In this document: in pieces, positions 29,064 through 36,508 of the stretch
Position numbering within the stretch: position 1 is the first letter of the stretch
How the letters are laid out: each line of letters starts with the position of its first letter
Notes under the pieces: model-generated
Databases searched by the model: none
Told to the model about the DNA's origin: nothing
The model's input: the letters and a program-made list of their open reading frames with translations, nothing else
Made by a program: the position numbers and the translations under genes
NCBI GenBank assembly: GCA_019638235.1
Contig: JAHBUE010000004.1
Coordinates: 1 to 64,000, forward strand
DNA: 64,000 bases
Source: Cyclobacteriaceae bacterium
GTDB taxonomy: Bacteria; Bacteroidota; Bacteroidia; Cytophagales; Cyclobacteriaceae
Direction: 5' to 3'

Positions 29064-29104
29064 TTTTGCTTTTTAATAAATGTTTAACTAAAACTAAAAA
29101 CGCT

Positions 29105-29233
29105 ATGGCAAAAAAAGCAAAAAAAGCAAAAAAAGCTGCTAAGAAAAAAGTAGCAAAGAAGAAAGTAGCTAAGAAAGCTGCTAAGAAAAAAGTAGCTAAG
29201 AAAGCAAAGAAAGCTGCTAAGAAGAAGAAGTAA
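29105..29233 (+). CDS. lysine/alanine-rich histone H1-like mini-protein
   Basis: 42 residues beginning MAKKAKKAKKAAKKKVAK and containing only Met, Ala, Lys and Val, with Lys more than half. Composition and the AKK/AAKKK repeats resemble the C-terminal tail of histone H1 and bacterial H1-like nucleoid proteins, so it probably coats DNA or another polyanion; this is inference. It is supported as a real gene by a TTTG-N19-TAnnTTT promoter with a leader of about 35 nt and a perfect 14-bp-stem terminator 23 bp after its stop. The DNA is internally repetitive, so unit number may vary between strains. Confidence 0.8.
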   Translation: MAKKAKKAKKAAKKKVAKKKVAKKAAKKKVAKKAKKAAKKKK

Positions 29234-29256
29234 GTTGATGATAATATCAACAAGCA

Positions 29257-29285
29257 AAAAGAGCTGGTCATTGACCAGCTCTTTT
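29257..29285 (+). terminator. strong intrinsic terminator after the mini-histone gene
   Basis: A perfect 14-bp inverted repeat (AAAAGAGCTGGTCA with its complement) with a one-base centre, ending in TTTTGTTTT. Confidence 0.9.
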
Positions 29286-29317
29286 GTTTTGGATACTGCT
29301 GCCTTTTGCCTGCTGAT

Positions 29318-29836
29318 TTGTTCGCTTCTCAAATCGTTAACCGGATTCGCAACAGCAGCCTTAAAGCATTGTATGGATATGAGTATACATGCGGCTGTAA
29401 GCATGAAACCTGCTGCCAGCACAAATGGAAAAATATTTTGTTCAACGCGGTAAGCGTAGCCTTGCAGCCAGTAACTGGTAATGGCGAATGCAAGCGGCCA
29501 CGCAATGATATTCGCCAACGCTATTTGCAACGCATACTCCTTTATGAACAGCATGACACTGTTTGCTGCTTTAGCACCCAATACTTTCCGAATGGCTATT
29601 TCTTTGGTTCGGCTGGATAACGTGAACGTAACAATCCCGAATATTCCCAACAGCACGATGATGAACATCAGGACAGTGGCCAGGCTTCCCGCCTTTTTCA
29701 GTTGCAGTTTGGTAGTATATAATGACTGAAAACGGTCATCCATAAACGTGTACTCGAAACCTGTTTCGGGGAATAGGGCTTCCCATTTCTTTTTCAGGTC
29801 ATCTATGGTGGAAGCAATAAAGGTGTCGGCAAATGG
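29318..29836 (-). pseudogene. MacB/FtsX-type ABC transporter permease, 5'-truncated remnant
   Basis: The minus strand reads PFADTFIASTIDDLKKKWEA, then a membrane domain (TVLMFIIVLLGIFGIVTFTL, SSRTKEIAIRKVLGAKAANS, YWLQGYAYRVEQNIFPFVLA) ending NPVNDLRSEQ. This is the last quarter of a MacB-like permease. Upstream (from 29837) homology stops abruptly in hairpin-rich DNA. At the 3' end the frame runs on antisense through the terminator and the mini-histone gene, so the original stop seems lost. It is a dead fragment with deletion at both ends. Confidence 0.75.
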
Positions 29837-29862
29837 TTTTCTTTCGGCTGTCGCACAGGCTT

Positions 29863-30104
29863 CGGGCGGGTTCGTTGTTCGGCTGCGGTCAGGCAGAACC
29901 CGCCCGTAATGGCTTCAAAATGCAGTTCAGAGGCTTTTACATGTTTCCAGAGCTTCGCCCAGGTTTTAATCGGGCGTTCCGCCCGATGCGCCCCTTTTTT
30001 TGTTTCCCGCTTTAGCGGGGTTCGGGCTTTTCAGCCCGCAAATAATCGCTTCTTTTTGCTTCTTCCCTCTGTGGATTTTTAAAACTTCATCCCGAACATT
30101 CGGG
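29863..30104. repeat. cluster of GC-rich palindromes at the edge of the AT-rich block
   Basis: Five perfect or near-perfect hairpins lie in 242 bp: CGGGCGGGTTC/GAACCCGCCCG (29863-29906), CGGGC/GCCCG (29971-29985), CCCGC/GCGGG (30006-30019), CGGGCT/AGCCCG (30023-30038) and CCCGAA/TTCGGG (30091-30104). No coding frame is convincing in 29837-30354. The composition contrasts sharply with the adjacent helicase gene. Confidence 0.7.
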
Positions 30105-30354
30105 AGCGGTTTTTAAGGCTTCATTCAGGGCGGTTTTTGCTTTCTTCACTTCTCTTTCTTGGGGTGGGTAAAAGTGGTTTGTGGCGTGTGTTTTTGTTTT
30201 GCGGGGTGGCTTTAGCTCTTTGCCAAAAGTTAGTGCCTGCTAAGGATAAATTTTCAAGTATAACGAACCAAATGTTGGCTCTTTTATTTTTATTCTTACA
30301 AAAACAACTTTTATTTTCCCGGTTTCATAGATTAGTTATTTCAGCGTTTCAAGT

Positions 30355-33300
30355 TTAATGAATTCTTTCAAAATACAGTTCAGGTAAAATAATTTTCACT
30401 TCTTGCTCTGTTTCTTCTTTTTTCCAGTAAACTATAAAATTCACTTTGGCAGTTTTTAACTCATAATTTTTATTTCCCATGTTCACAATTTGCTCAATAA
30501 ATTGCTTTGAGAATTTTAATACAGATTTTTCCTTGCTGTCCAAACATTCATCTCCGTTTATTGTCAGCGTGTCTCCGCTTTTAAGTTGAGAAATCAAATG
30601 TTGTCGGGTTATGAAATAGTCAAGCCAAACGTCTTTTAATGACAAGTGCATTGCTAATTCGTTCGGTCGCAAATGAATTTCTTTATTTTCAATTCGTTCT
30701 AAATTGTCTGCTGTGAGGCCGTCAAGAAAGTTTGAGTTTAAATGAATTATCAAGTTTGTTTTTGCTCTTGTCATTGCAACATATAGAAGTCGTTTTGTCT
30801 TGTCTGTTGCAGAATTGAAGTTTTCAAGCATTAGGAAAACATTGTCAAATTCTTTTCCTTTTGCCTTGTGAATGGTTGAAACAAAAATTGTTTCGCCATT
30901 TTCGTTATAGAAATCTTCAAGCTTAGATTCACGAATGAAAACTTCTAAGTCGGATTTGTATCTCTTTTTAGGATTAGATGCTTCAAATTCTTTGATGATG
31001 TTTCCTAAAATTTCCAATTTAGTGCTGTGGCGATATTTGTTTACCACTTCACGTCTTGCGTTTAACCAAACATCATCGTTGATTATGTAAACATCGTCAG
31101 CCAAATTCAAATGACTTAAAAAATAGCGGACTTCGTTAAGGTTGTATAAACTGAAACCGTCATTTGACTGAATCAATTTTGCTTGAATGTCATTTTTTAA
31201 AAGCAATCCTGTAATTTGTAATGCTTCTTCATTTGTTCTCGTCAAAATGCAAGTCGTTCCCGAAAGCCTAGTTGTGAGAATGTCTTGCACAAGTGGATTG
31301 ATGAGGTTTCCACTTTGATAACAAACAATCTTTATTTTTCCATTGTCGTTTTGCTTTGCAATGATTGGTGTTTGTTTTAGTCGGTAAGGAATACGTTTTA
31401 CGAATTGATTTGAAAAATCAACAAGATTGCTTTTGCTTCGGTAATTCTCTACTAATTCGTGTTTGACTGCGTTGTTTTCCTGAATGAATTGCTCCAAATA
31501 TTTTGAACTTGCCTCTCTAAATTCATAAATATTTTGGTCGTCATCGCCAACCGCAATCACTCTCATTTCTTCATTTTGTTCCATTAAAGCACTTATCAAT
31601 CCAAACTCGTCTTTGTTCATATCTTGTGCTTCGTCAATTACCAAAACGGTTTTTGTTATTCGGCTTGCTTCAACTTCATTGTTTTTTATTTTCTGAATTG
31701 TCTTTTTTATAATTTCTCCTGATTTTTCTATACTGCCCACTCTACCTAATAAATCAAAACAGTATGAATGGAAAGTTTTTATTTCAATATAGTTTGCTGC
31801 ATTTCCAATAAGATTAAGCAAACGCTTTTTAAATTCGGTTGCTGCGGCTCTTGAAAAAGTAATCATAAGCAACTGTTCGTGCTTCACATCTTCCATTAAA
31901 AGCAACGAAGCAAGTTTGTGAACCAAAACTCTTGTTTTTCCGCTTCCCGGACCCGCAGCAACAACAATGTGTTTTGTCTCGTTGTCGTTTATTATTTTTA
32001 ATTGTGTTGGCGAAAGTTCTCCGAAAAGTTGTCTGAATTTAGCAGGCGTAATGTTTCGCTTGATTTCATTTTGACGACTGCCCGGAAAATATCTGTGTAA
32101 AAATGAAGAATAGTTTAAGTGAAAATAATCTTCTACAAACTGCAATGCACTTTTGTAGTCCTCAATCATTTTTTTAGCGTATTCTCCAACAATGTGAATT
32201 TGCTGAACTTTGTTTTCGTAAAACTGATGTAGTTTTTGATAATCATCTTTTGTGTAACGTTTTTTGTTGTCTTGTTCTGTTCGTTCAATGGTCAAACGAT
32301 TATACACAACCAAAAAACCGCCTTCAATTTTTATGGCTTCAATTCTTGACAAGTAAAATAGCGTGTCTTCAATATCGTCAAGACTAATGTTTACTTTAAA
32401 TAAACTTGAACTTTCCTCGTAAGCGGATTTTAATTCTTGAACTGAAAATTCAACTAAGACTTCTTCTTTTGTAGATTCTTTTTCCGAAACGTTCACATTA
32501 CTTTTTTCATAGAGAAACTCAATAATGAATTTTGCTAAAGCGTGTCGTTTCTCTAATTTATCTTTCAATAATTCTTTTGGCTGTAACGAAAGAACAGCAA
32601 CGTGGTTTTTTGATTCTAAACTTTGTCGTTTAATCCAATTTTTGATTGCCCAAAAATTGATAATGGTTTTAATCTTGTTGGTGCTGATGTCGTCAAGTCC
32701 TTTTTCTTCCGCTTGTTCGTTCAGTTCTTTGATGTGAAATACTTTTTCTTGTTCTTCAATTATTGGAAGCAAAAAGTCTTCAATTTTACTGAATGTGTCA
32801 ACTATGTTGAACGAACGATTTTTGTTTTCTCCTTTTTTGATAAAAGCAGTCAAATCTTTTGCATCGGCTAAAATCTTTTCTTCACGCAAAAGATTGACAA
32901 TATTTATCACTTCTTCTTTTACAATTCCCAAATGGTCGCTGATGTAATCAATTCTTGATTCTGCCGCTTCATCACTTGTTTGTTTTCTGCTTTTACTTGA
33001 AAAAAGCTTCTTGATAATTCTGACACCTTTTTCTTTTTGGTTTCCAACAAATCTTTGCGAAGCATTGATTTTGTCAATAGCTTCTTGTGCATTTTTTGAG
33101 AGAATACTGTTTGCAAAAACTCGTGGCATATTTTGCCCGCGTTTCAAATATCCTGCATCTTCCAACGCAGCAATGGCTGTTGTTACCCGTGTTTCAATTT
33201 CAACAACATTGTCGTCCCAACCTGCTTTTCGTGCAATTTCCAAAGCGGAATTGGAAACAGTTGAGCGAAATCGTGTAATTTCTTTTATCGCTTTCCAAAC

Positions 33301-35169
33301 CTGTTGGATTTCTTTAATGGAAAGTTTGGTTTGATTTAAAAGAATAAAGTGCTTGCTTAAATCTTCTTCATTAAACAACACAAAACAATCAGCCGTGATA
33401 TTTTCATCACGCCCTGCCCGTCCTGCTTCCTGAATGTAGTTTTCAAGTGAATCGGAAATTTCATAGTGAATTACCATTCCAACGTCTTTTTTATCAACAC
33501 CCATTCCGAAAGCGGAAGTAGCCACCATTATTTGAGTTTCTCCATTGATAAACGAATCTTGGTTTTCAGATTTTTCCTGTTTATCCATTTTACCGTGATA
33601 CGGTTTTGCACTAAAACCATCATCTCTTAAACGTTCAGCAAGCAGGTAAGCTTTTCGTGTTCGTGAAACGTAAATGATAGTCGGACAATTTTTTTCTTCA
33701 ATCAAATCTCTCGCTGCTTGGTATTTTTCTTCTTCGTCTGCTTTTTCAAATACCTTATATTGAAGATTTGTTCGTGATGCAATTGAAGTGAATAATTCAA
33801 GATTAAGCGATAGTTTTTCTCTGAAATAATCTCTTATATCTTCAATTACTTTTTGTTTGGCTGTTGCTGTGAAACACGAAACAGGAATGCCGTCTTCAAG
33901 ATTTTTCTTTTCTTGAATTGATTTGATAAAATCTCCGATGTATAAGTAATCAACCCTGAAATCTTGCCCCCACGATGAGAAACAATGTGCTTCGTCAATA
34001 ACAAAACGTGCAATCTTTCTTCCTAAAACTAAACGCTCAATGGTTTTTGAACGAAGCGATTCGGGTGATATGTAAAGAATAGAAACCGAGCCGTCTTCAA
34101 CTCTTTCAAAAGATTTTGCTCTTTCAATCGGGTCAAGTAAACCATTTATTGTAACCGCGTCTGTGATTCCATTTTTTTCAAGATTATCAACCTGGTCTTT
34201 CATTAGTGATTGCAAAGGGGAAATTACAATCGTCAAGCCTTTTGAAGTTTCTCCGCTCATCAAAGCGGGAACTTGAAATGTTATTGATTTTCCGCCTCCA
34301 GTAGGGAAAACGGCAAGTATAGATTTGTTGTCAATCGCAGCTTTAACCGCTTTTTCTTGTAAAGGTTCGCCTCCATAACTTCGGTAAGAATCAAAACCGA
34401 AAAATCTTTTCAGCCCTTTGTGTGCGTCTAAAACGCTGTTGCAATATTCACAACCGTTCACACAAGGTTTGTTTCGCAAACGGAACATTATCCGTTCAAC
34501 TTCGGGATAAGTTTTCAAAACCCAAGGTGGCGTTATGGAATGTATTTTCTTGTGTTGAACGAAAGAATTTATCAGCGATAAACAGTAAGCAAGTTCAATC
34601 GGTTTTTCTGAAATGATTTTTGCTAAATCAACTTGTTCGCAAAGTTCGTTTTTGAATTTTCCGCGAATAAGTTTTTCAATGTCTGCGCTTGCGCTGTTGT
34701 ATGCGATGTAGCGAAAAAAAGAGCGGAACTCTTTTTTGTCGTTTAATAGCAAATAAAAAATTTGTTTGAGCGTGTCGTCTGTTTGTTTGAATGTAGCAAT
34801 TTCATCATTCAACAAATCTTTCGCTTTGATTGAATCGTTCAGAGGATTGTTTGTGTCTTCCGATTGCAGCTTGTCGTCTTTGAGTAGTTTATGATACGGC
34901 TTTGTCGGAAAAAGTAAAGGCGAAAGGAACAGCGTGTCAATGATGTTTGTCGAATTTATTCCTGCGTCATTAAGAGCTTTCCCGATATATTTTATGTCGT
35001 GATTGAAAATATTGTGTCCGCAGACGAATTGAGTGCCGTTAATAAACTGTATGAACTCAGCTATCGAAGTTTTGTGAAAAGAACTTCCATTATCCTTGAC
35101 ACTTCCAATGTCAAGAATCTTTCCGCTCTTAGGCTCAATCTCCGTATCTATGAATGCAATTGAGTTCAT
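30355..35169 (-). CDS. giant fusion: DEDD-type exonuclease, RecQ helicase and UvrD/Rep helicase
   Basis: 1604 residues in one uninterrupted frame. Residues 1-170 resemble a DnaQ-like 3'-5' exonuclease (FIDTE with Asp8 and Glu10; GHNIFNHDIKYIG with Asp58). A Cys cluster (C236, C240, C243) precedes a RecQ-type SF2 helicase: Walker A PTGGGKS (289-295), DEAH (392-395), SAFGMGVDK and motif VI EAGRAGRD. A helical linker (about 600-1040) leads to a UvrD/Rep SF1 helicase: Walker A GPGSGKTR (1073-1080), DEAQD, GDDDQNIYEFREA, VSTIHKAKGKEFD and LLYVAMTRAK. Two motors of opposite superfamilies plus a nuclease suggest processing of DNA ends or forks, in repair or defence. It is clearly richer in A/T than its surroundings and lies 47 bp beyond a broken vsr gene on the same strand. 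Confidence 0.9.
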   Translation of the reverse strand: MNSIAFIDTEIEPKSGKILDIGSVKDNGSSFHKTSIAEFIQFINGTQFVCGHNIFNHDIKYIGKALNDAGINSTNIIDTLFLSPLLFPTKPYHKLLKDDKLQSEDTNNPLNDSIKAKDLLNDEIATFKQTDDTLKQIFYLLLNDKKEFRSFFRYIAYNSASADIEKLIRGKFKNELCEQVDLAKIISEKPIELAYCLSLINSFVQHKKIHSITPPWVLKTYPEVERIMFRLRNKPCVNGCEYCNSVLDAHKGLKRFFGFDSYRSYGGEPLQEKAVKAAIDNKSILAVFPTGGGKSITFQVPALMSGETSKGLTIVISPLQSLMKDQVDNLEKNGITDAVTINGLLDPIERAKSFERVEDGSVSILYISPESLRSKTIERLVLGRKIARFVIDEAHCFSSWGQDFRVDYLYIGDFIKSIQEKKNLEDGIPVSCFTATAKQKVIEDIRDYFREKLSLNLELFTSIASRTNLQYKVFEKADEEEKYQAARDLIEEKNCPTIIYVSRTRKAYLLAERLRDDGFSAKPYHGKMDKQEKSENQDSFINGETQIMVATSAFGMGVDKKDVGMVIHYEISDSLENYIQEAGRAGRDENITADCFVLFNEEDLSKHFILLNQTKLSIKEIQQVWKAIKEITRFRSTVSNSALEIARKAGWDDNVVEIETRVTTAIAALEDAGYLKRGQNMPRVFANSILSKNAQEAIDKINASQRFVGNQKEKGVRIIKKLFSSKSRKQTSDEAAESRIDYISDHLGIVKEEVINIVNLLREEKILADAKDLTAFIKKGENKNRSFNIVDTFSKIEDFLLPIIEEQEKVFHIKELNEQAEEKGLDDISTNKIKTIINFWAIKNWIKRQSLESKNHVAVLSLQPKELLKDKLEKRHALAKFIIEFLYEKSNVNVSEKESTKEEVLVEFSVQELKSAYEESSSLFKVNISLDDIEDTLFYLSRIEAIKIEGGFLVVYNRLTIERTEQDNKKRYTKDDYQKLHQFYENKVQQIHIVGEYAKKMIEDYKSALQFVEDYFHLNYSSFLHRYFPGSRQNEIKRNITPAKFRQLFGELSPTQLKIINDNETKHIVVAAGPGSGKTRVLVHKLASLLLMEDVKHEQLLMITFSRAAATEFKKRLLNLIGNAANYIEIKTFHSYCFDLLGRVGSIEKSGEIIKKTIQKIKNNEVEASRITKTVLVIDEAQDMNKDEFGLISALMEQNEEMRVIAVGDDDQNIYEFREASSKYLEQFIQENNAVKHELVENYRSKSNLVDFSNQFVKRIPYRLKQTPIIAKQNDNGKIKIVCYQSGNLINPLVQDILTTRLSGTTCILTRTNEEALQITGLLLKNDIQAKLIQSNDGFSLYNLNEVRYFLSHLNLADDVYIINDDVWLNARREVVNKYRHSTKLEILGNIIKEFEASNPKKRYKSDLEVFIRESKLEDFYNENGETIFVSTIHKAKGKEFDNVFLMLENFNSATDKTKRLLYVAMTRAKTNLIIHLNSNFLDGLTADNLERIENKEIHLRPNELAMHLSLKDVWLDYFITRQHLISQLKSGDTLTINGDECLDSKEKSVLKFSKQFIEQIVNMGNKNYELKTAKVNFIVYWKKEETEQEVKIILPELYFERIH

Positions 35170-35216
35170 TTTATCTTATGCGGCTAATTTAGTATTGATT
35201 TGAGGGCTGTTTTGCG

Positions 35217-35540
35217 TTAGGGATTGAAGTGGAAATCCTTTTTGTCCCGCAGGGCAAAAAGATTGGAACGGAAAGCCCGACCCGATAGGGGAACGCCCAA
35301 ATCATTATGTAAAATAAGGTCTTTATCTCTTTCAACGTTCTTCAAAATTTTAGGTATCCAATAATCCGTATATTTTGGCAAAACAATATCAGGATTCCCG
35401 ATTAGCTTTTTGTTGTATATACGATACCTTAGCCCTTTACTAAATAAATATTTACGAGCAAGCAATTCAGGCTTTGTATCTGTTTTCCTGATTCTTGACA
35501 TGGTATAGCTCCTTGTTGCTTTATCGTAAACATCCGCCAT
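35217..35540 (-). pseudogene. very-short-patch-repair endonuclease (Vsr), internally deleted
   Basis: The start (MADVYDKATRSYTMSRIRKT, DTKPELLARKYLFSKGLRYR) and NPDIVLPKY are classic Vsr, the T:G mismatch nicking enzyme that accompanies 5-methylcytosine methyltransferases. Immediately after LPKY the sequence jumps to TDYWIPKILKNVERDK, which in intact Vsr follows about 25 residues later. The missing piece normally holds the FVHGCFWH core and zinc ligands. After ERDK the frame reads unrelated residues. The enzyme is therefore inactive. It starts 4 bp after the XRE regulator. Confidence 0.82.
35238..35261. terminator. hairpin at the end of the vsr remnant
   Basis: CTTTTTG and CCC pair with GGG and CAAAAAG, giving an A/T-flanked GC stem that could end transcription in either direction. 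It lies in a stretch (35221-35310) with further short G/C palindromes. Confidence 0.5.
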
Positions 35541-35544
35541 TATT

Positions 35545-35763
35545 CTACTTTGTTTTATTTGATGCTAATAGCTCTCTTACATCTACATCTAACGTATCGG
35601 CAATCTCAAAAAGAGTTTCCATAGTTGGCTGCACATCATTGGTGCACCATTTGGAAACTGTCGTTTTATTCTTTTCTAATCGTTCGGCCAACCAAATATT
35701 CGTTTTACCATTTTCTGCCAATACGGCTTTTATACGATTGTAAATACGTTTTTTGCGGCTCAT
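35545..35763 (-). CDS. XRE-family helix-turn-helix regulator
   Basis: 72 residues from the ATG at 35763 (MSRKKRIYNRIKAVLAENG). The HTH reads NIWLAERLEKNKTTVSKWCT, followed by PTMETLFEIADTLDVDVREL, the standard Cro/C1 fold. Regulators of this kind precede DNA methyltransferase-Vsr-restriction gene sets in Bacteroidota and control their expression. Here only the vsr remnant follows, 4 bp away; no methyltransferase is present. It may still regulate the helicase gene, which is inferred from co-direction only. Confidence 0.85.
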   Translation of the reverse strand: MSRKKRIYNRIKAVLAENGKTNIWLAERLEKNKTTVSKWCTNDVQPTMETLFEIADTLDVDVRELLASNKTK

Positions 35764-35837
35764 TTTAATTGCATTTATTGCAAATATGGTGGCGAATTTA
35801 CACATTTTATAGTGCTTGGATTATCTAAATGACTTTT

Positions 35838-35872
35838 CTTTCAGCACCGCCCTAAAAGGGCAATGCTGAAAG
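35838..35872. other. hairpin in the intergenic region before tmRNA
   Basis: CTTTCAGCA pairs with TGCTGAAAG with an inner GCCCT/AGGGC stem. It lies just upstream of the XRE regulator. The rest of 35873-36020 holds no gene that I can support. Confidence 0.5.
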
Positions 35873-36020
35873 CTGGCGAACACCTGACGAGTGAACCCAA
35901 ACAAAGCAACCGCAAGGAAGCTGATAAACCCTGATGCTGGGTGTTAAAAAAAATCGTCTTTGATTTCGTGCCGCCTTATCAGGAAATCCCCAAATACAAG
36001 GCTTTGCAAGCAAAGCAAAC

Positions 36021-36043
36021 AAAAAGCCCCGCGTTAGCGGGGC
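36021..36043 (-). terminator. tmRNA terminator
   Basis: On the minus strand GCCCCGC-TAAC-GCGGGGC is followed by TTTTTG, a standard intrinsic terminator 77 bp beyond the tmRNA 3' end. Confidence 0.85.
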
Positions 36044-36080
36044 GATTAAAAAGTGAGAAAGAAAAAGAATTTCTCTCTTG

Positions 36081-36131
36081 GTGGAGCCGCAGGCTTGCCT
36101 GCCGAAACTCCGAAAGGAGTGGAGCCGCAGG
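36081..36131. repeat. direct duplication of the tmRNA 3' end
   Basis: GTGGAGCCGCAGG occurs at 36081-36093 and again at 36119-36131, where it covers the last 12 nt of the tmRNA gene. The 3' end of ssrA is a frequent target of integrases, so this may be an attachment-site remnant. Confidence 0.6.
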
Positions 36132-36508
36132 GAATCGAACCCTGGTCCAGAGAAGAAGATAATCGTATCTTCTACATGCTTAGTTGACTTTACTTGTCGG
36201 GAATGGCAAGGCAGGCAACAGCCAAACTATTCCGTAGTTACGTGGTCTTAGTTGCACGTTGTAACTCCGTACAAAGCAGTTCCGCAAAACGACACCGCTA
36301 AATCAGCACTTGCAGAACAACGCGCTGAGCGATGATGGCCTGGCGCGTCTTACACGCCATAAGCTAATCTAACGTATCGTCAGATTAAGCAGCCATGGCG
36401 TAGTTAGTCTCGCCACGTATGGTTCAGGACTATCTTTCAAGGCTCTCATCCTATGAGCCTGCATGCTTACACACGTCATCACACATCCTGTCAAAACCGG
36501 TCGGCCCC
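36120..36508 (-). ncRNA. ssrA: transfer-messenger RNA (tmRNA)
   Basis: 389 nt. The 5' end GGGGCCG pairs with 3' CGGCTCC (discriminator A at 36120; CCA not encoded), and the 3' T-arm is CAGGG-TTCGATT-CCCTG. The tag frame ends GETNYAMAA followed by TAA (36414-36385 read on the minus strand), matching Bacteroidota tags of the GExxYAxAA type. It rescues stalled ribosomes and tags nascent proteins for proteolysis. A perfect -7 element lies upstream and a terminator downstream. Confidence 0.96.

Follow-up and report, generated by a model that had tools for sequence, protein, structure and literature searches.

The gene considered here lies on the minus strand of a 64,000-nucleotide stretch of Cyclobacteriaceae DNA (the window), where the open reading frame list and its translation give an intact frame of 1604 codons with an ATG start and no internal stop. 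Its product joins, in order, a DnaQ-fold (DEDD) exonuclease-like domain, a cysteine cluster, a RecQ motor (SF2), a helical middle region, a UvrD-type motor (SF1A) and a C-terminal beta domain (Table 1), in agreement with a sequence-only reading that had placed a DEDD-type exonuclease, RecQ and UvrD in a single frame. The AT-rich block described in the same reading is also borne out, with a GC content of 34.9% for the gene (GC3 30.8%) compared with 43.7% for the remainder of the window once the variable region is set aside. AlphaFold models of the two halves of the protein have mean pLDDT values of 78 and 84, and the matches returned by fold searches with these half-models were filled by the motors. 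The motor alignments comprise 60 homologues, and the alignments behind the structure models exclude sequences from plasmid records. The architecture as a whole appears in none of the PADLOC, Pfam and NCBIfam models, no PADLOC model covers the entire protein, and we found no paper in the open-licence literature that describes or tests such a fusion.

Table 1. Features of the gene and its surroundings, in positions of the window.
Feature	Positions	Strand	Residues	Remarks	Basis
Exonuclease-like / RecQ / UvrD protein, whole gene	30355..35169	-	1-1604	Single ORF; whole transferable unit	
DnaQ-fold (DEDD) exonuclease-like domain	34465..35169	-	1-235	D8, E10, D58 and D112 invariant; His position is N107	
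C-x3-C-x2-C	34441..34464	-	236-243	Possible metal-binding knuckle	
RecQ-type SF2 motor	33319..34440	-	244-617	FPTGGGKS, DEAH, WGQDFR, QEAGRAGRD	
Helical / winged-helix-like middle region	32053..33318	-	618-1039	Partly low confidence; post-motor RecQ zinc Cys cluster absent	Model and sequence inspection
UvrD-type SF1A motor	30682..32052	-	1040-1496	AGPGSGKT, DEAQD, GDDDQNIYEFR, STIHKAKGKEFD, YVAMTRAK; shorter than UvrD	
C-terminal beta-rich domain	30355..30681	-	1497-1604	Stop codon included	Model
Vsr remnant	35217..35540	-		Match to family positions 1-57 only; probably dead; not a conserved partner	
Small XRE/HTH_3 regulator	35545..35805	-		No homologue beside other family members	
Variable region	29291..36117	.		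Absent from two congeners (G206, G198)	
ssrA (tmRNA)	36117..36508	-		Its 3' end bounds the variable region on the right	

In the two congeners that lack the variable region, the interval between a yjbR-like gene and ssrA holds instead a TerC-like gene, which we take from its sequence to be terC, and a small ORF, and the edge again falls at the ssrA 3' end. A search of the window that allowed up to three mismatches did not reveal another copy of the ssrA 3' end that could represent an attachment site, and integrase-type insertion is therefore not established. Annotation scans confirmed the Vsr remnant, the XRE regulator and the nearby ssrA, but the argument that the sequence-only reading drew from the first two fails, as the XRE gene occurs at no other of the 105 loci compared, a Vsr-like match occurs at only one other, and the Vsr of the window is itself truncated. 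The three genes do adjoin one another on one strand within one AT-rich block, which would suit a single restriction-type system made up of the gene, XRE and Vsr. Such a system is nonetheless very improbable: the genes are linked at no other locus, a comparison that already contradicts it, and no cytosine methyltransferase was noticed beside the truncated Vsr. Vsr and XRE are thus ruled out as functional partners.

Several other elements were observed at this site. A Flavo-1 RNA (RF01705, 62.8 bits; 35209-35286, plus strand) overlaps the 3' end of the Vsr remnant, and the genome contains one further copy outside the window (C1:1967216-1967304). The variable region has at its left edge an FtsX-like permease fragment (29372-29743, minus strand), which retains only the C-terminal part and has the appearance of an ABC transporter gene that was truncated. 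Lysine/alanine-rich repeats at 29084-29270 on the plus strand suggest a histone H1-like gene, and the long minus-strand frames over the same interval are probably spurious.

The exonuclease-like domain lies below Pfam detection, with no match to residues 1-250 of the window protein. The six best PDB matches of a family profile built from 31 members are all DnaQ-fold exonucleases (E 0.0014-0.11), and the half-model has the DEDD-like order of strands and helices expected of this fold. The domain resembles TREX-like, DnaQ and PolC exonucleases in its DxE and GHNxxxxD motifs, its last Asp and its strand and helix order, and the four acidic metal ligands are invariant across the family. It differs from them, however, at the position of the DEDDh catalytic His, five residues before the last Asp. 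Here the family has Asn in 92 of 96 sequences and Ser in the other 4, with Asn in every sampled phylum, including in Proteobacteria, Aliarcobacter and Calothrix. Because N107 replaces the catalytic His family-wide, the nuclease activity of the predicted domain is not assured. The claim that all catalytic motifs are intact thus holds for both motors and for the four acids, but not for the His position.

One interpretation of this substitution is that the nuclease is dead and the protein is a DNA-structure sensor, with the N-terminal domain serving for binding or gating and the motors disrupting the replication of invading DNA or protein-DNA complexes without cutting. The retention of N107 in nearly all members across phyla, alongside invariant acids, would fit such a role, as would the profile alignment to a PDB entry that pairs N107 with the His of a DEDDh exonuclease. 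We consider this unlikely, however, since the invariance of D8, E10, D58 and D112 argues that the site binds a metal ion and is catalytic. Two further invariant residues, H93 and K97, might stand in for the missing His. The adjoining cysteines (C236, C240 and C243), which are invariant in a Bacteroidota-rich set of 60 sequences and missing in Aliarcobacter and Calothrix, form a possible metal knuckle.

The RecQ segment scores 277 bits against the NCBIfam RecQ family over residues 253-617 (cut-off 220) and carries the Walker A and B motifs, the aromatic-rich loop and motif VI. Its half-model fits BLM, WRN and RecQ structures with Z up to 35, the value obtained for BLM, and the motifs of both the RecQ and the UvrD motors are invariant over 60 homologues. 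The segment stays below the cut-off of the DNA helicase RecQ equivalog TIGR01389 (321 bits against 640) and of NCBIfam DpdF (222 bits against 550, over the motor segment only), so that the protein does not qualify as a Dpd component; DpdF and PsyrT are the best PADLOC models over this part. The protein shares an SF2 RecQ motor, with all its motifs, with E. coli RecQ, WRN, RqlH/PsyrT and DpdF, but differs from them in its fusion to an SF1 motor and in lacking the zinc-binding RQC cysteine cluster after the RecQ motor, where C595 is the only cysteine within residues 590-720. WRN also bears an N-terminal DEDD exonuclease, of the DEDDy type, whereas the domain described here is neither DEDDy nor DEDDh. 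The same genome encodes two further, stand-alone RecQ proteins.

In the second motor, the Pfam models UvrD-helicase and UvrD_C score above their cut-offs over approximately residues 1046-1480, and the fold is that of an SF1A helicase. Fits to UvrD, PcrA and Rep reach Z values of up to 39, and the model of residues 1040-1496 aligns with Deinococcus radiodurans UvrD over 437 residues (Z 38.9). This part spans 457 residues, compared with about 645 in UvrD, so that its accessory subdomains are reduced. The protein has its SF1A motor core and motifs in common with UvrD, PcrA, Rep and GajB of the Gabija system, and GajB models and structures match it. Compared with all of these, however, the core is shorter and covalently linked to RecQ, and it has no GajA-like partner: the adjoining ORFs are the XRE gene and Vsr remnant to one side and the FtsX remnant to the other, with no OLD-family nuclease next to the gene.

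Full or near-full copies occur in 33 of 196 sampled genomes of the window's bacterial family, with fragments in two more, and a phylum-wide sample of 395 genomes gave an exonuclease-domain match in 15 (approximately 4%), always inside a frame of at least 1600 amino acids. Among GTDB representatives there are 302 matching stretches, and the best 80 of these 302 (71-94% identity) are all from Bacteroidota except for one Fibrobacter and one Brocadia bin. Copies with 27-50% identity are found on plasmids of Bacteroides, Phocaeicola, Aliarcobacter, Rhodobacterales, Rhizobium, Thiothrix, Allochromatium and Cyanobacteria. The plasmid members therefore span four phyla, extending beyond Bacteroidota to Proteobacteria, Campylobacterota and Cyanobacteria, and several of their records carry full-length annotated proteins of about 1600-1760 amino acids. 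No near match was found in E. coli, and none of 50,697 phage records gave a full-length match. A member with 55% identity was seen on a putative viral contig (IMG/VR UViG 3300044580_000446; L106 566-5410).

The gene is clearly horizontally mobile, because its distribution is patchy, it is carried on plasmids, and it is 94% identical to the copy in Sphingobacterium lumbrici (L087) but only 83% identical to that of the sole sampled congener with the gene. A Chitinophagaceae bin (L028) holds the other closest relative, and the closest clade with support includes members from at least four orders. When the orders are mapped onto a FastTree phylogeny of 77 members, 27 changes are required, compared with a minimum possible of 8, although the labels are still more clustered than chance. 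In five copies with 87-90% DNA identity to the window, homology breaks off about 25 bases or less from the ends of the ORF, and hence the gene essentially moves by itself. Flavobacterium copies have approximately 30-230 upstream bases in common and almost none downstream. Within the window's nearest group, a longer flank block occurs only in L028 and L087; it is a DUF6577-AbiEii pair directly upstream, whose last gene ends about 25 bases before the gene, and L029 keeps a piece of it. Apart from the gene itself, no conserved neighbour cluster is common to more than 7 of the 105 loci. A few copies are broken (L019, L039 and L091). The dN/dS ratio relative to the nearest copies, approximately 0.075, points to strong purifying selection on the intact ones. 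At 4 of 48 scanned loci (L054, L065, L066 and L097), the gene has a tRNA gene no more than about 500 bases away, which may hint at tRNA-linked insertion sites.

These results strongly support the earlier view of an accessory locus: the gene is patchy, horizontally spread, plasmid-borne in several phyla, additional to two RecQ genes and situated at a variable site. A ubiquitous, vertically inherited core gene with no defence-gene neighbours, the outcome that would have spoken against that view, is contradicted. The patchy, horizontally transferred distribution is also the pattern sought in an anti-phage system.

The sequence-only reading had proposed asking whether homologues sit in defence islands, and the answer is mixed. 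In 4 of 33 host genomes, an AbiEii match is no more than 10 kb away from the gene, compared with 0.3 expected (approximately tenfold, P ~3e-4), but the majority of neighbours are housekeeping or ordinary metabolic genes. Among the 148 nearest neighbours at 42 loci, PADLOC and Pfam matches to AbiE, McrBC, type I/II restriction-modification, HNH and AbiD involve roughly ten proteins, and the 143 neighbours at 21 Chitinophagaceae loci include DndC, JetA, SNF2/ZorD-like and HNH matches. PADLOC families number 77 in 143 gene neighbours and 5 in 80 core-recQ control proteins, a contrast that is overstated because the control is syntenic across genomes and thinned of repeats. N6_Mtase occurs near the gene in only two genomes (G003 and G030) and is not decisive. 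Plasmid neighbours include hsdRMS in Allochromatium, HipA in Rhizobium, and BrnT and RES genes in Cereibacter. Overall, the defence-gene association of the family is real but modest. An anti-phage or anti-plasmid role, as first proposed, is plausible given AbiEii and the restriction-modification, McrBC, HNH, AbiD, DndC and JetA neighbours, but only moderately supported given that most neighbours are housekeeping genes. Two individual loci may be described here as well: a Thiothrix plasmid copy has a WYL regulator and Cas6 at a distance of about 4 kb (L113 16487-18094), and the congener copy (L137) is flanked on one side by a Schlafen-type helicase (PDC-S41, 2e-285) and on the other by a pair consisting of an AbiEi-like gene and a short AbiEii (L137 5953-7238, 12849-14834).

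The main competing explanation is an accessory repair or replication-restart enzyme, in which a WRN-like exonuclease, RecQ and a UvrD-type translocase clear stalled forks, recombination intermediates and protein roadblocks for the host or a plasmid, with no role against invaders. The domain set matches that of repair enzymes, the gene is often solo among housekeeping genes, the Aliarcobacter copy adjoins parAB and a replication initiator, and the Bacteroides copy is on a plasmid with ssb and parA. However, this genome already has two RecQ genes, such extreme patchiness and transfer would be unusual for a repair gene, and a repair role leaves aside the AbiEii enrichment. We regard this explanation as a serious possibility, although one with the weight of probability against it.

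The explanation that we favour, at about an even chance, is a solo, mobile accessory nuclease-helicase for the processing of abnormal or foreign DNA, with anti-phage or anti-plasmid defence as its most likely role. The protein is intact and under purifying selection (dN/dS ~0.075), with motor motifs and four acids invariant over 60-96 homologues. The gene is patchy, transferred across orders and plasmid-borne in four phyla, it coexists with two other RecQ proteins, and its modest defence association includes AbiEii near 4 of 33 host copies and the DUF6577-AbiEii pair upstream of the two nearest relatives. We count against it the mostly metabolic neighbours, N6_Mtase nearby in only two genomes, a nuclease that lacks the catalytic His, and the lack of both a whole-protein PADLOC model and a paper testing it. 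A repair or plasmid-maintenance role would account for much of the same data.

Both the RecQ and UvrD helicase families have 3'-5' polarity. In the defence explanation, the RecQ motor would load onto abnormal or incoming DNA at a 3' tail, a gap or a fork and open it, the UvrD-type motor would pull the exposed strand or strip bound protein, and the DnaQ-fold domain would trim, or at least grip, the freed 3' end. The likeliest benefit would be defence against phage or plasmid DNA by one chain with no obligatory partner. We infer the enzymatic activities, polarity, substrate and defence role, the polarity and substrate from knowledge of the RecQ and UvrD families. The earlier description of a self-contained end-processing machine is thus a fair deduction from the domains, but one weakened by the family-wide change of His to Asn.

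A similar logic, in which a nuclease and a helicase act on DNA ends, is found in Hachiman (HamAB) and in RecBCD/AddAB. The family protein differs from these in being one chain, with another nuclease fold, RecQ and UvrD motors, and no partner or trigger known. Hachiman is a helicase-nuclease that senses DNA damage (PMC12278908), and may serve as the closest working analogy, though not as a relative by membership. It is conceivable, if somewhat short of an even prospect, that the family is a one-gene immune system in which an Asn-type DEDD nuclease, RecQ and UvrD in one chain sense aberrant ends or forks in the DNA of invaders, and that it spreads as a bare gene across phyla without partners or common flanks.

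If the protein is defensive, one transferable gene would join sensing and processing that known helicase-nuclease systems split over at least two proteins. The family-wide Asn at the nuclease site poses a precise question of how DEDD enzymes cut and whether this protein cuts at all, and the near-absence of common flanks between copies that are 87-90% identical raises that of how a gene of this size can transfer by itself. The family comprises hundreds of loci, nearly all in Bacteroidota among those examined, and, if defensive, would be common enough to matter for phage resistance in that phylum.
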